From: Gammaproteobacteria bacterium
Lineage (GTDB): Bacteria; Pseudomonadota; Gammaproteobacteria; UBA6429; Thiohalophilaceae
Reading direction: 5' to 3'
NCBI GenBank assembly: GCA_024641475.1
Contig: JAHECZ010000009.1
Span: forward strand, 1-64,000
DNA length: 64,000 bases
The position numbers and the translations under genes are program-made. Every line of letters starts with the position of its first letter. Position 1 is the first letter of the stretch. A model generated the notes under the pieces. It saw only the letters and a list, made by a program, of their open reading frames with translations, searched no databases and was not told the origin of the DNA. This document shows positions 19,822 through 26,381 of this stretch, piece by piece.

Positions 19822-22131
19822 TTACGGTTGTCGCCAATACCGCTGCATTTCCACCCGGTAACGTTGTGGCGGCTCCAAAAGTACACCGGCACGTAGCCAA
19901 AAGCGGATGGCCCCGGCAGAGGCTGTGTCATACGTCATTGCACCCGCCGCCTGATAGCGTGCCACCACGCTGGTATTCGGAAAATGATGGCGATTATGCT
20001 TCCCCGTCGCAAATAAGACATAATCGGGTCTGACTGCCTGGATAAATTCGACTGTGGAGGATGTCCGGCTGCCATGGTGAGGAGCAACCAGAATTTGCGC
20101 TGGTAATTGCGTTAAGCTGTCCCTAATTAACGCTGATTCGGCGCGTGATTCAATATCGCCGGTCAATAAAATATGTTGAGTGCCACGACTGACTCGCAAC
20201 ACACAGGAAAGATCGTTTTCCTTTGTTACTGCAGTGTAAGCCGCCGCAGGCGGGTGCAATACCGTAAAATTCACCCCCTCCCATTCCCAGTGCTGCCCTT
20301 GCTGACAGCGCACAGCCAATAATTGCTCAAATTTCTCTGGCACGCTGGAACTCACCTGGGTTATTGCAAAATTCTCCACAATACCTTGCATACCACCGCT
20401 ATGGTCATTGTCACCATGGCTGATTATTAAATAGTCAATGCGGTCATAGCCATAATGACGCAGAAATGGGGCAATCACTGCTGTTCCCGTATTAAACCGA
20501 TCTGAATATTTTGGTCCGGTATCAAATACCAGCAGATGATTGTGAGTCTGAACCACGGCTGCCAGCCCTTGCCCCACATCCAGTAACGTAAAATAGGCAT
20601 CACCCCAGTCAGGGCGATCCGATTTTGGCAGGAGCATCGGAATCAGCGCGAATACCGCTAACCAGCGCCTTGGCAACCCTGGTGGCAGCCCCAGCAGCAT
20701 TAAACCAATCACCGCCACGAATACGGCCAGCAAGTTTACAGCGGGTATGGTGATCATCGCGAAAGGCAGGCTGGCCGCCCAATGCAGTAACCACCATAAG
20801 CCATCTATGAGCCCGGTTGCGGCATGTAATACCACTTGGCCCAACACCGGGACCAAACCAAGTAACAAGGTACCGAGTAACGATAGCGGTAAAACCACAA
20901 ACGTGACATAAGGCACGGCGAACAGGTTGACCAGCGGTGCATACATGGGCACTTGTTCGAACAAAACGATGAGTAACGGAATAAGTCCAAGACAAATAGC
21001 CAGTTGCATACCTGTCATTTCTTGCCAAATCGACCGGGCTGCCCGATGCCGCCCCATTGAGACGAATAAAATTATGGACACCGCGCCAAACGACAACCAA
21101 AAGCCTATCGCCATCACCGCCAGCGGGTCGGACAGGAGGATCAGCCAGAGCGCAAAGGCCAGGAGGTAGCTTGGTTTGATGCGGTAATTAAAGAAAATAG
21201 CCACAAATACCACCGCCAACATCCAGCAGGCGCGTTGGGTGGGAATTGAAAAACCGGCCAACGCTGAATAGCTCACCGCCGCCAGACAAGCCGCAATAGC
21301 AGCCGCTCTGGGTGCCGCAATCCACAGCGTTAAACCCGCTGACCGGCGCCACAACGTTCCCACGAGCCAAAAGACCAATCCAGCTATCAAGCTGATATGT
21401 AAGCCGGATATGGCCAGTAAATGCGACGTCCCCGTGGCACGTAATGTCTGCCAATCCGAGCTGTCCAATGTGGACTGAATTCCCAATACCAACGCCACAA
21501 CCACCCGGCCGCTCACCTTACCAACCAACACCGAATCAAGGCGGTCACGCACATGTTGCCGCAAAGATTGGAGCGGATATTCCCAGGGATGAGAGCCTAG
21601 CAGGGCTGTTGCTGCATCAGGCTTAACGTAACCACTGGCACCAATACCTTTTTGTATAAGCCAGGCTTCTTGATCGAAACTGGCCGGATTCGAGAAACCT
21701 TGCGGCGATTTCAAGCGAATTGTCAGTCGCCACTGATCGCCCGGTAGTAATAATTTGGTGGTATTGCGCCAGCGTAGACGCAGGCGCTTCGGGATTTTCG
21801 CCGTCACCGGTGAAATAAGGTGCGATACTTCAAATTCAAAACGCGTAATGTCAGATTGCTTCTCTGCTAACGAAGCAATCGAGCCCTCGACAACGATATT
21901 CCGATCCAGCAAAGCGTTATCAAGTGTAATGGGTAATGTCAGATAGGCGTAACCCAGGCTCCATAAAAAGCCGCCCACCGCCCACACTAAAACTCGAAAA
22001 AACGCCGTGTGAATTCGCCACAAGCCGATGATTACAAGGGGGGAAAAGACGAGAAGAAAAACTGATGGCAGCTCTGCGAGCTGCTGAAATAGTACGACGC
22101 CACCAAGCCAGGCAAGAATTCCGCTTCGCAT
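19822..22131 (-). CDS. comEC: DNA internalization competence protein ComEC/Rec2
   Basis: Inner-membrane channel for single-stranded DNA in natural transformation. The 769-aa protein has the three expected parts. The N-terminal DUF4131 segment is followed by a competence domain with many membrane helices (ATGTSHLLAISGLHISL is the signature). The C-terminal metallo-beta-lactamase-like domain has SHGDNDHSGG and APHHGSRTSS. The gene is intact, so the organism may be able to take up DNA. Its place between lolD and exbB matches Pseudomonas. Confidence 0.95.
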   Translation of the reverse strand: MRSGILAWLGGVVLFQQLAELPSVFLLVFSPLVIIGLWRIHTAFFRVLVWAVGGFLWSLGYAYLTLPITLDNALLDRNIVVEGSIASLAEKQSDITRFEFEVSHLISPVTAKIPKRLRLRWRNTTKLLLPGDQWRLTIRLKSPQGFSNPASFDQEAWLIQKGIGASGYVKPDAATALLGSHPWEYPLQSLRQHVRDRLDSVLVGKVSGRVVVALVLGIQSTLDSSDWQTLRATGTSHLLAISGLHISLIAGLVFWLVGTLWRRSAGLTLWIAAPRAAAIAACLAAVSYSALAGFSIPTQRACWMLAVVFVAIFFNYRIKPSYLLAFALWLILLSDPLAVMAIGFWLSFGAVSIILFVSMGRHRAARSIWQEMTGMQLAICLGLIPLLIVLFEQVPMYAPLVNLFAVPYVTFVVLPLSLLGTLLLGLVPVLGQVVLHAATGLIDGLWWLLHWAASLPFAMITIPAVNLLAVFVAVIGLMLLGLPPGLPRRWLAVFALIPMLLPKSDRPDWGDAYFTLLDVGQGLAAVVQTHNHLLVFDTGPKYSDRFNTGTAVIAPFLRHYGYDRIDYLIISHGDNDHSGGMQGIVENFAITQVSSSVPEKFEQLLAVRCQQGQHWEWEGVNFTVLHPPAAAYTAVTKENDLSCVLRVSRGTQHILLTGDIESRAESALIRDSLTQLPAQILVAPHHGSRTSSTVEFIQAVRPDYVLFATGKHNRHHFPNTSVVARYQAAGAMTYDTASAGAIRFWLRAGVLLEPPQRYRVEMQRYWRQP

Positions 22132-22168
22132 ATCTGCTCACATCCATGTTCGCAGATCCGACGATAAC

Positions 22169-22846
22169 TTATGTCATACCCGGTTGCAATCGGCCATCGT
22201 GTAAATGCAGCACGCGATCCATTTTGGCGGCAAAATGAGGATCATGAGTAACCACCAGAAAACTGGTGTGATAATCCCGATTGAGTTCCAGCATCAGTTC
22301 ATATACCTGATCGGCCGTTTTGGTATCCAGGTTGCCAGTCGGCTCATCGGCCATCACGCACTTGGGTTTGGTGATCAGCGCACGGGCTAAAGCAACGCGC
22401 TGACGCTCACCACCAGATAATTCATTTGGTTTATGCTGAATGCGATGTCCCAGACCAACACGTTCCAACAAGGCAGTTGCCTCCCGCTCGCATTCAGGTA
22501 CATCCACACCACGGATCAATAAGGGCATGGCGACATTTTCCAATGCGGTAAATTCCATTAATAAATGGTGAAACTGATAGACAAAACCCAGCGTGCGATT
22601 GCGTAATTGTCCACGGGCGTTGTCACTGAGTTGGTGCATCATCTGTCCATCGACCCGCACTTCACCCTGAGTTGGCAGATCCAATCCACCGAGCAAATGC
22701 AGTAAGGTACTTTTGCCAGAACCGGAAGCACCAATGATCGCAACCTGTTCACCGACGCCAATCGAGAGATTAACGCCATGCAGCACTTCCACCTTGGCCG
22801 GGCCTTCGGTATATGTCTTGGTTAGATTGACACACTCGATCACCAT
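22169..22846 (-). CDS. lolD: lipoprotein-releasing system ATPase LolD
   Basis: ATPase of the LolCDE complex that extracts outer-membrane lipoproteins from the inner membrane for the carrier LolA. The 225-aa protein has Walker [12 protein letters not shown], signature [15 protein letters not shown], Walker [13 protein letters not shown] and the [22 protein letters not shown] region typical of LolD/MacB-type ATPases. It follows the permease gene by 9 nt. Confidence 0.96.
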
Positions 22847-22855
22847 ACTCGATAC

Positions 22856-24100
22856 CTATTCATAACGCAGAGCATCAGCAGGTTGAGTACGGCTGGCACG
22901 CCAGGCAGGCAGAATGGTAGCAAGAATCGACGTCACTAACGCAGCACTGCAGATGTAAGCAACCTGATCCCAGTGTAAATCGCTGGGCAAATCCGGGATA
23001 AGATACACCGAGGGGTCAATGGGCTGAAAACCCCAATGGATCGATACCCATTGATACAATGGTTCGATATTAAGCGCGATGACGACACCGAGAATGCCAC
23101 CCAGTAACGTTCCGGCAAATCCAATAATGCTACCTTGCACGATAAAAATGCGCATGACGCTGCCTGTGGAAGCACCAAAGGTACGCATGATGGCAATATC
23201 GGATTTCTTTTCCGTCACCACCATGACCAGGGTGGAAATAATATTAATTGCGGCAACCAGGATCACCAAAAACAATAATAACGATATCATGGTTTTTTCC
23301 ATTTTCACCGCCTTGAACCAATTACTGTGATAATAACTCCAGTCACGCACCCAGAAGTCGGGTAATTGTTGGCGCAATTCCCTGGTTACCGGCATAACTT
23401 GTAATAAATTCTGTACCTGAACCTGCACGCCGCTGACATTATCGCCCAACTGAAAGACACGACGTGCGTCATCAAGATTCATCAGTCCTACGGCACTGTC
23501 ATACTCATAGTAACCAACCTGAAAAATACCCACGACACTGAAACGTTTTAAGCGTGGCATCACACCAGCCGGTGTGATATTCGCACTGGGCGTCACCACG
23601 GTGATTTTATCACCGATATCGACACCAAGAGTACGTGCCAGCGATTTACCCAGGACAATGCCAAATTCACCTGCACGCAAATTATCGAGCTTGCCGCTGA
23701 CCATATGTGAGGCAACTTTCGATACGGCAGATTCTTGCGCTGGATCAACACCACGAAACATGGCGCCGTGAACATTGCTACGGTAGATCAACATACCTTC
23801 AGCCTGCACATAAGGTGCGGCACCGGTCACGTGCGGGTTCTGCCGCACCTGCCCGACGACTTGCTGCCAGTTATTCAACTGGCCTTCGTAATTGGTAACG
23901 GTGACGTGCGCGATCATATTCAGAATACGATCGCGTACTTCCTTCTCAAAACCATTCATCACTGACAACACAATGATCAAAGTCATCACACCAAGGATGA
24001 TGCACAAAATTGAAATAAAGGAAATTAACGAAATAAACCCGTTGCGCCTTTTGGCGCGGGTATAACGCAGACCGACGAACAACTCTAGCGGTAGATACAT
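22856..24100 (-). CDS. lolC: lipoprotein-releasing ABC permease LolC/LolE family
   Basis: Inner-membrane permease of the Lol system, 414 aa with four membrane helices: one N-terminal (FISLISFISILCIILGVMTL) and three in the C-terminal third (about 270-390). They bracket a large periplasmic domain. The N-terminus FVGLRYTRAKRRNGFISLIS is the family signature. Only one permease is encoded here, whereas E. coli has separate LolC and LolE; a single LolF-type permease dimer is possible, but a second gene could lie elsewhere. Confidence 0.93.
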   Translation of the reverse strand: MYLPLELFVGLRYTRAKRRNGFISLISFISILCIILGVMTLIIVLSVMNGFEKEVRDRILNMIAHVTVTNYEGQLNNWQQVVGQVRQNPHVTGAAPYVQAEGMLIYRSNVHGAMFRGVDPAQESAVSKVASHMVSGKLDNLRAGEFGIVLGKSLARTLGVDIGDKITVVTPSANITPAGVMPRLKRFSVVGIFQVGYYEYDSAVGLMNLDDARRVFQLGDNVSGVQVQVQNLLQVMPVTRELRQQLPDFWVRDWSYYHSNWFKAVKMEKTMISLLLFLVILVAAINIISTLVMVVTEKKSDIAIMRTFGASTGSVMRIFIVQGSIIGFAGTLLGGILGVVIALNIEPLYQWVSIHWGFQPIDPSVYLIPDLPSDLHWDQVAYICSAALVTSILATILPAWRASRTQPADALRYE

Positions 24101-24167
24101 GGGACGCTATTAAACCATATGTCACGCGGCATGAATACTACCAATAAATATTTCACAGGCTGGACAA

Positions 24168-26381
24168 TTAACTGCGGGTGATCCGGCGAATATCCTGGAT
24201 ATTGTTCAATTGTGACAGGCGGGTAAGCGCGCGACTCAATTGTTCAACGCCATTGACCTCCAGGGTAAGATTCATTAATGCCGTACTTTCCAGTTTGTTC
24301 GACTGGGTATTCACGGTCGTCACGTTAACTTTTTCGTTACTGAGCACGGTTAAAATATCACGTAATAGTCCCTGCCGATCGATGGCCTCAATACGAATAT
24401 CGACCGGATAGGCATCTAATGGCGCGCCACTGTTCCATTCGACCGTAATCAAACGACCCAGTTTGTCTTCGCTCATATTTAAAATATTGCGGCAATCATG
24501 CCGATGAATAGTTACACCTCGACCACGCGTTATATAACCAATGATGGCATCGCCGGGCGCGGGCGAACAACATCGACCCAGGTTGGTAAGCAAATTGCCA
24601 ACACCCTGGATATGAATAGCCGAAGTATTTTTTATTTTCTTTCTGTTTGTTTCTGGCGTGTCAGATGGAGCAGTCACAGTCGGCGTAGCGAGTGTTTGTC
24701 CTCTTGCTGCAATCTGATTCGGTGTAATATCGCCACGGCCATAAGCGGCATAAAATTCTTCCACGCCGGGGTGTTTGAATTGTTCTGCCATTGCCGCATG
24801 ACTTATGCCTTGCATGCCAATACGACGCAAGTCTTTTTCCAATGCTTCCCGGCCCAATTCCACATTCTGTGAGTGATCCTGTTGCTTGAACCAGGCTTGT
24901 ACTTTGGAGCGGGCACGCGAAGTTTTCAGATACCCCAACAATGGATTTATCCAGTCACGACTGGGCTGACCATTACGCGCTGTGATAATTTCCACCTGCT
25001 CCCCATTTTTCAATTCATATACCAGCGGTACCATGCGCCCATTCACACGCGCACCACGACAACGGTGGCCGACATCAGTATGAATATGGTATGCGAAATC
25101 CAGCGGTGTCGCGCCTTGCTGTAAATCCATAATATTGCCCTGCGGGGTCAGCACATAAACACGATCCTGGAAAACTTCGGATTTAAATCGATCAATAAAA
25201 TCACCTGCATCACGCGACTCATCTTTCCATTCCAGGAACTGTCGTAACCAGGCTATTTTCTGTTCATAGGCGGCATCACCGCGCTTACCTTCTTTATAGG
25301 CCCAATGTGCCGCCACACCGAGTTCGGCTTGTTTGTGCATGTCATGAGTGCGGATCTGCACCTCCAGGGTTTTGCCCTGTGGCCCGACTACGGCGGTATG
25401 AATTGACTGATACATGTTTTCTTTGGGTGTTGCGATGTAATCATCAAACTCTTTGGGAATATGGCGCCACAAGGTATGAATCACACCCAACGCAGCGTAA
25501 CAATCCTGTATGCGCGGCACCAGAATACGTACCGCACGAAGATCATGTAACGCATGAATATCAACACCTTTGCGTTGCATCTTGCGCCAGATACTATAGA
25601 GGTGTTTGGGACGTCCATAAATTTCTGCCACGATACCTGATTCGCCAAGCTCGGTTTTAATCTTGTTAATTACCTCGTCAATGTAGCGCTCGCGATCGAT
25701 GCGTCGCTCATCCAGAAAAACCGCCACCTTTTTATAGTCGACAGGTTGCAAATAACGAAAGGCCAAATCCTCCAGCTCCCATTTGAGTTGCCAGATACCC
25801 AGGCGATTTGCCAGGGGCGCATAAATATCGGCGGTTTCCTGCGCAATACGTAATTGCTTGTCTTGTGCCAAATATTTGAGTGTACGCATGTTGTGCAAGC
25901 GATCTGCCAGCTTGATTAACACTACTCGCACATCTTCTGCCATTGCTAATAACAGTTTGCGTAAATTTTCCACCTGCATGCGTTCCTTGCCGGCTTTCTC
26001 CGTCAAGCCTTGCAGATCGATGCTGGCCATTTTCGTGACCCCATTCACCAGGCGGGCAACACCGCTACCGAATGTCTGTTCAATCTCGGTTAATTTAATA
26101 CTGGTATCTTCAACCACATCATGCAAAATCGCCGCGATAATCGCTTCGCTATCCAGGCGTAACTGCACCAGAATTTCTGCTACGGCCAGGGCATGTAAAA
26201 TATAGGGTTCACCCGATGCGCGGGTTTGCTGTTTATGTGCGTTGTTAGCAAGGGTAAATGCCCGACGAATGCTGATCGCTTCAGGCGCATCCGTACTAAA
26301 CCCAAGCGAGCGCAGCCAGGACTCCACCTGCTCCTGGGTGACTTGCTCTTGAGTATCAAAATGCGTATCAACGTAAACCAT
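24168..26381 (-). CDS. relA: RelA/SpoT family (p)ppGpp synthetase, RelA type
   Basis: Stringent-response alarmone enzyme of 737 aa with HD, synthetase, TGS, helical/CC and ACT regions. The synthetase has the EXDD motif (EFDDYIA, 311-317), a RelA hallmark, with YQSIHT following. The N-terminal HD domain nevertheless keeps the residues of an active hydrolase: H63, H87-D88, E91-D92, D160 and N164. In E. coli RelA this site is degenerate. In Pseudomonas relA lies beside rlmD and cysM, which are also in this window but 23 kb away. It may therefore be a RelA lineage member that can also degrade ppGpp. Confidence 0.93.
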   Translation of the reverse strand: MVYVDTHFDTQEQVTQEQVESWLRSLGFSTDAPEAISIRRAFTLANNAHKQQTRASGEPYILHALAVAEILVQLRLDSEAIIAAILHDVVEDTSIKLTEIEQTFGSGVARLVNGVTKMASIDLQGLTEKAGKERMQVENLRKLLLAMAEDVRVVLIKLADRLHNMRTLKYLAQDKQLRIAQETADIYAPLANRLGIWQLKWELEDLAFRYLQPVDYKKVAVFLDERRIDRERYIDEVINKIKTELGESGIVAEIYGRPKHLYSIWRKMQRKGVDIHALHDLRAVRILVPRIQDCYAALGVIHTLWRHIPKEFDDYIATPKENMYQSIHTAVVGPQGKTLEVQIRTHDMHKQAELGVAAHWAYKEGKRGDAAYEQKIAWLRQFLEWKDESRDAGDFIDRFKSEVFQDRVYVLTPQGNIMDLQQGATPLDFAYHIHTDVGHRCRGARVNGRMVPLVYELKNGEQVEIITARNGQPSRDWINPLLGYLKTSRARSKVQAWFKQQDHSQNVELGREALEKDLRRIGMQGISHAAMAEQFKHPGVEEFYAAYGRGDITPNQIAARGQTLATPTVTAPSDTPETNRKKIKNTSAIHIQGVGNLLTNLGRCCSPAPGDAIIGYITRGRGVTIHRHDCRNILNMSEDKLGRLITVEWNSGAPLDAYPVDIRIEAIDRQGLLRDILTVLSNEKVNVTTVNTQSNKLESTALMNLTLEVNGVEQLSRALTRLSQLNNIQDIRRITRS

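Follow-up and report, generated by a model that had tools for sequence, protein, structure and literature searches.

A gammaproteobacterial RelA with an EXDD synthetase motif and a complete HD hydrolase site

The 64,000-nucleotide stretch of DNA analyzed here (the window; positions 1 to 64,000 of contig JAHECZ010000009.1, assembly GCA_024641475.1, from a gammaproteobacterium of the Thiohalophilaceae) encodes a long RSH protein that is RelA by descent and by profile. In this protein the sites for both synthesis and hydrolysis are complete; its HD domain is under purifying selection and has the ancestry of the other RelA HD domains, and a separate SpoT is encoded in the same genome. Judging from the sequence, the protein is very probably a bifunctional, ribosome-regulated RelA (RelA[HS]) that retains a working ancestral hydrolase beside SpoT.

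The gene, its class and its host genome

The protein (Table 1) passed the curated cut-off of the NCBIfam relA profile PRK10872 (790.8 bits vs 728) and failed that of the spoT profile PRK11092 (597 vs 947). When the HD and motif columns were left out, it fell into one clade with E. coli RelA (43 rows, SH-aLRT 99), and neither the trees nor the clade tests clustered it with SpoT. EFDDYIA, placed at residues 311–317 in the initial annotation, was found starting at 311, so that EFDD occurs instead of the RXKD-type motif characteristic of SpoT[HS]; the H63, H87, D88, E91, D92, D160 and N164 listed with it were all confirmed, HDVVED beginning at residue 87. According to the definition excerpted from PMC3153485, RelA[hS] has a degenerate HD domain, but here every diagnostic residue is present. 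The complete HD, the complete SYNTH, and the TGS and ACT domains on a single chain are those of a Rel[HS]; however, a Rel[HS] is the only long RSH of its genome, and this genome carries two.

Table 1. Features of the window relA gene and its product
Feature	Position in the window	Strand	Basis
relA CDS, long RSH of the RelA clade, EXDD motif and complete HD site, 737 aa	24168..26381	(-)	
HD_4 (ppGpp hydrolase) domain, residues 41-197	25791..26261	(-)	Pfam
H63, metal ligand by homology (= H54 of A. baumannii SpoT)	26193..26195	(-)	alignment; PMC9974481 (excerpts)
H87-D92 (HDVVED), metal and catalytic motif HDxxED	26106..26123	(-)	
D160-N164 (DRLHN)	25890..25904	(-)	
alpha6-alpha7 stretch with H-loop, 23 residues between positions 117 and 141	25962..26030	(-)	
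RelA_SpoT (SYNTH) domain, residues 256-366	25284..25616	(-)	Pfam
EFDD, residues 311-314	25440..25451	(-)	
TGS domain, residues 408-467	24981..25160	(-)	Pfam
ACT_4/RRM domain, residues 657-733	24183..24413	(-)	Pfam

With E. coli RelA (RelA[hS], PRK10872), the protein shares not only the clade but also EFDD, the 23-residue H-loop stretch, a TGS–ACT C-terminal half and the presence of SpoT alongside, and the E. coli RelA structure 5iqr was its best sequence match in the PDB. However, E. coli RelA (L116), which makes ppGpp only according to the excerpted text of PMC8012599, has R, F, P, D, A, E and H at seven core HD positions, whereas the window protein keeps the whole site.

In the host genome (131 contigs, 97% complete), the RelA_SpoT domain and the HD_4 domain each occur exactly twice. 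A separate spoT, which the initial annotation had proposed to look for, was found: the second RSH is a SpoT with a KFKD motif and an intact HD (L002:415-2550), which ruled out the window RelA as the sole hydrolase of the genome. The ORFs directly upstream of spoT we take to encode an omega-subunit-like (rpoZ-like) protein and the end of a guanylate-kinase-like protein; this order is the one annotated in E. coli K-12, gmk-rpoZ-spoT. KFKD in place of RFKD was observed in the host SpoT and also in SpoTs L005, L034, L035, L373 and L377.

In the window, lolC/E, lolD and comEC come after relA on its strand (19822-26381, minus strand). The relA-lolC-lolD-comEC order was retained in one congeneric genome (L004 and L036, which share identity figures and hence are probably one genome). 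Among the 82 loci searched, many of which have short flanks, lolC was found near relA only at L004 and L036, so the shared order is uninformative in general about a conserved operon partner of relA.

Completeness of the HD site and constraint on it

Loss of other essential HD residues, which the initial annotation had named as a finding that would refute its reading, was looked for in an alignment and not seen. The excerpts of PMC9974481 report that A. baumannii SpoT no longer hydrolyzes when R45, Y51, E82, D83 or N147 is substituted, that H54 and H78 bind Mn2+, and that the site is lined by K140, K158 and R161. In the alignment, these residues correspond to R54, Y60, E91, D92 and N164, to H63 and H87, and to K157, K175 and R178 of the window protein, respectively, and all are identical. 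R54, K117, R161 and T167 are further residues present beyond those listed initially. The suggestion that the enzyme may both make and destroy ppGpp was borne out at the sequence level, where the sites for both reactions are complete.

Two milder differences speak against a working hydrolase. Residue 64 is A in the window protein, P in SpoT (18/18), in Bacillota Rels (29/29) and also in alphaproteobacterial Rels, and variable among intact RelAs. Residue 113 is N where most enzymes have D, but N also occurs in 3/29 Bacillota Rels. An AlphaFold model of the protein (22 sequences) had a mean pLDDT of only 75; its N-terminal half, compared with the S. aureus Rel catalytic domains in complex with pppGpp, gave a TM of 0.94 over the target and an rmsd of 1.9 over 341 columns.

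To avoid circularity, conservation was assessed at non-defining sites, i.e., HD positions outside those that define a site as intact. H49, Q52, G57, V112, R161 and T167 were 100% conserved across 78 intact RelAs of Gammaproteobacteria plus the window protein; in 77 decayed RelAs, a count that includes the truncated L259, the commonest letter at positions 49, 52 and 167 reached only 17%, 16% and 22%, respectively. The invariance of such sites indicates that the complete HD site is not due to chance. HD identity was also compared with SYNTH identity in pairs, leaving out the eight diagnostic residues. In the SYNTH identity bin 0.60–0.65, HD identity was 0.58 for pairs of intact RelAs (n = 1098), 0.55 for Chloroflexota and 0.63 for SpoT, and 0.33 for pairs of decayed RelAs (n = 359); the ranges were 0.56–0.59 for intact RelAs vs 0.32–0.36 for decayed ones. 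The kind of constraint acting on the HD domain in intact RelAs matches that in enzymes known or presumed to hydrolyze.

The HD pocket could, however, have been kept for binding, acting as an allosteric sensor of Mn2+ and (p)ppGpp that controls the synthetase and hydrolyzes hardly or not at all in the cell, this work being done by SpoT. We regard such a role as unlikely. A SpoT is indeed present in the genome, the HD fold of E. coli RelA regulates the synthetase without catalysis (PMC8012599, in excerpt), and intact RelAs differ from one another at some residues on the phosphate side (K175, present in the window protein, is retained in only 53/78); nevertheless, constraint on the catalytic E91/D92, N164 and H87/D88 is as strong as that on the binding residues, whereas in a pure sensor the ED motif would be expected to drift.

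Intact and decayed RelAs across the class

RelAs were read in a sample of 370 genomes of the window's class, from the highest score downward; the low-scoring ones were left unread, so the intact share is not a random estimate. Among the 110 distinct RelAs read in this top-scoring-first manner, which came from 69 families, 56 keep 8 of the 8 diagnostic HD residues, none keeps 7, one keeps 6, two keep 5, 50 keep 4 or fewer, and one lies on a truncated contig; 53 of the 110 are decayed. Partly decayed sites, with 5–6 of the 8 residues, were found at L269, L295 and L301. Within the window's own family (L008–L030), 21 further distinct RelAs were intact, one was decayed and one was cut off. The combination of EXDD and intact HD being common in relatives, a local oddity or a misread motif was discarded as an explanation. 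In a small phylum-wide sample, all of the further distinct RelAs read (21/21) were decayed, which, together with the top-down reading of the class sample, counts against generality of the intact state.

For counting losses, regain of the eight residues was taken as impossible. On the best RelA tree (LG+G4; 60 intact and 54 decayed rows, the truncated L259 having been dropped), intact and decayed RelAs were interspersed and 17 losses were needed; when branches under SH-aLRT 95 were collapsed, at least 6 were still required. The "early RelA state" proposed in the initial annotation holds insofar as the intact site is ancestral within RelA, but it does not correspond to one early branch, as it persists in 28 of the 69 families read.

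That the HD of the window protein has only recently been orphaned, being unused and with its decay still to come, seems very improbable. Related lineages have lost the site repeatedly, even within families that also hold intact RelAs (f108, f101 and f34; f139 was left out of these mixed families since L259, the row counted there as "decayed", lies on a truncated contig). However, constraint on the HD is full over deep divergence, as the identity ranges given above attest, and none of the 110 RelAs of the class sample has 7 of 8 residues.

Two genomes, G070 (L308) and G080 (L319), had a single RSH match each, in both cases a RelA with EXDD whose HD has decayed; true absence of SpoT there would be remarkable, and incomplete assembly is likelier. 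A mirror image of the window protein was encountered among alphaproteobacterial long RSHs: L363, L364, L368 and L369 (genomes G598, G620, G595 and G610) combine RFKD with a decayed HD and form one clade, and each of these genomes has several further RSH matches.

The EXDD motif, the H-loop and the origin of RelA

The EXDD form, which the initial annotation took as the mark of RelA, does not belong to RelA alone. Among 39 distinct long RSHs from Chloroflexota (the 29 with the best scores and 10 picked from further down the list, whereby the EXDD share is biased upward), 32 read (E/Q)XDD, one GFDD, one SFDD and five RXKD, and HD was intact in 39/39; within the 10 lower-scoring ones, (E/Q)XDD occurred in 3. 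Since (E/Q)XDD and an intact HD go together in most Chloroflexota Rels read, the EXDD motif is no sign of a dead hydrolase. Of 26 genomes titled Chloroflexota, 24 yielded only one synthetase-bearing RSH (G040 and G046 show a second), so the EXDD plus HD architecture presumably does both jobs there. In three genomes of the phylum (G539, G547 and G449), at least two long RSH genes lie near each other on the same contig, in frames of more than 800 codons.

Chloroflexota Rels (Anaerolineae, Thermoflexus and others), about 50% identical to the window protein, were the nearest relatives of RelA outside Proteobacteria in all trees. They resemble it in motif, in intact HD and, mostly, in having a lengthened H-loop, but differ in that each is usually the genome's only synthetase-bearing RSH and in that the H-loop is variable and often longer. 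In a wide, pattern-based scan (one genome per species, at least 80 loci), the matches beyond Proteobacteria, among the loci listed, were Chloroflexota, a single Limnochordaceae and a locus with a Planctomycetota title and a motif string identical to that of Zoogloea. L109, titled Planctomycetota, has a diagnostic-residue string nearly that of Zoogloea L114 and L108; its contig is probably misassigned. The Bacteroidota long RSHs L381 and L385 read R(L/I)RDWVS at the RXKD site, neither RXKD nor EXDD.

The stretch between positions 117 and 141, which contains the H-loop, has 23 residues in both the window protein and E. coli RelA, and exceeds 17 in 78/78 intact RelAs and in 17/18 of the Chloroflexota set nearest RelA. 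SpoT[HS] of Beta- and Gammaproteobacteria has a complete HD site with the same residues as the window protein, but an RXKD-type motif, a stretch of 17 (18/18) and a place in a different clade. Bacillota Rels (B. subtilis, S. aureus) are also alike in intact HD (29/29) and domain order, but have KD at the last two motif positions (29/29) and 17 residues in the stretch (28/29); the alphaproteobacterial figure is 17 in 10/12 Rels. The length of the stretch agrees with the trees that place RelA near Chloroflexota Rels. In the excerpts of PMC8012599, the H-loop is described as confined to RelA homologs and as longer where the hydrolase is inactive, and the long form as controlling synthesis in E. 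coli RelA; here, a lengthened H-loop accompanies intact HD sites too and is not exclusive to RelA. Its presence in the window protein means that regulation of the hydrolase may differ from that in Rel.

In the RSH family tree that had been suggested as a check, the window protein lay in the RelA clade, away from SpoT. With the HD and EXDD columns removed, both FastTree (340 proteins) and an IQ-TREE site-mixture analysis (88 proteins) put all RelAs in one clade; in the latter, this clade had a support of 99 and lay within the EXDD Rels of Chloroflexota (two successive nodes, each at 99). SpoT grouped with alphaproteobacterial Rels (100) in the SYNTH+CTD trees. A full-length tree with Actinomycetota, Fusobacteriota and Bacteroidota added recovered RelA at 100/100, RelA plus six Chloroflexota at 98/85 and, with the seventh, at 100/99. 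Long-branch attraction of SpoT and alphaproteobacterial sequences to the root was considered as an explanation; the placement of RelA was unchanged by removal of SpoT, Alphaproteobacteria, Bacteroidota and Fusobacteriota (RelA 100/100; with six Chloroflexota 96/86, with seven 100/99).

AU tests, run without the outlying SpoT-labeled row L380, rejected RelA and SpoT as one clade (p 1e-9 with full length, 0.003 with SYNTH+CTD). A clade of RelA, SpoT and alphaproteobacterial Rels was rejected with full length (p 0.014), but with SYNTH+CTD alone it was not (lnL 4.7 lower, p 0.41), a result that speaks against a Chloroflexota origin. Monophyly of all Chloroflexota, a group named after the trees were seen, was rejected only moderately (p 0.0075; p 0.027 without SpoT and Alphaproteobacteria), which likewise tells against that origin.

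In an HD-only tree of intact proteins, 23/23 RelA HDs formed one clade (98/80), beside Chloroflexota and not SpoT, and RelA together with seven Chloroflexota (Anaerolineae-type) HDs was supported at 95/84. Because the RelA HDs join those of Anaerolineae type and not those of SpoT, the HD site was inherited, not borrowed; borrowing from SpoT is contradicted. If a RelA had lost its HD and then regained one through gene conversion or recombination, with SpoT or a different Rel as the source, an EXDD synthetase with a live HD could in principle result, and a SpoT is found in the same genome, but the single HD clade, congruent with SYNTH+CTD, and the RelA-length H-loop sitting within the HD make this the least credible of the explanations.

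We lean towards the view that RelA derives by transfer from a Chloroflexota-like bifunctional EXDD Rel, and is not SpoT's duplicate, the hydrolase having then been lost repeatedly. The donor would have been an EXDD Rel nearest to the Anaerolineae/Thermoflexus type, and the recipient an ancestor of Gammaproteobacteria (in the GTDB sense, with the betas) that already held a vertically inherited Rel, namely SpoT. At transfer, RelA would already have possessed EXDD, a long H-loop and an active hydrolase; many parallel hydrolase losses would then have produced the textbook synthetase-only RelA, the window protein representing one of many lineages that kept both activities. A closer donor may exist in phyla beyond those sampled, which include Desulfobacterota, Acidobacteriota, Nitrospirota, Deinococcota and Cyanobacteriota among the unsampled ones.

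Proposed function and implications

As for the catalytic activity, the ribosome switch and the substrate preference of the window RelA, which we infer, the protein would be, in Atkinson's notation, a RelA[HS]: an EXDD (p)ppGpp synthetase that is also a Mn2+-dependent (p)ppGpp 3'-pyrophosphohydrolase. A preference for GDP has been associated with EXDD (work cited in the excerpts of PMC3153485). When bound to a starved ribosome that carries deacylated tRNA, the enzyme would have its synthetase on and its hydrolase off; upon release from the ribosome, the balance would flip to hydrolysis, by homology with Rel. Beside a normal SpoT, the enzyme would provide a second hydrolase, that is, an off-switch coupled to the sensor of amino-acid starvation. 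The intact SpoT means that a second hydrolase is not needed for survival, which counts against this function. The hydrolase would represent the ancestral RelA state, which persists in this protein as in many related families and has disappeared repeatedly in others.

In the excerpted text of PMC3153485, RelA is defined as hydrolase-dead and derived from a Rel duplication, and long RSHs are considered little prone to transfer. The duplication is placed in Beta- and Gammaproteobacteria, with RelA becoming synthetase-only "relatively soon after" it (PMC9974481 and PMC3153485, in excerpt), and gammaproteobacterial RelAs are stated only to synthesize (PMC8012599, in excerpt). In the open-access PMC literature, we found no report of an intact-HD RelA or of a Chloroflexota origin of RelA.

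If these RelAs hydrolyze ppGpp, the standard duplication account would be wrong on timing, and EXDD could not be used to annotate an enzyme as synthetase-only. If the Chloroflexota origin is true, the founding enzyme of the stringent response would be a transferred gene, contrary to the notion that long RSHs rarely move. Close relatives with intact and decayed RelAs would provide natural pairs for assessing the effect of a live hydrolase and why it is shed.
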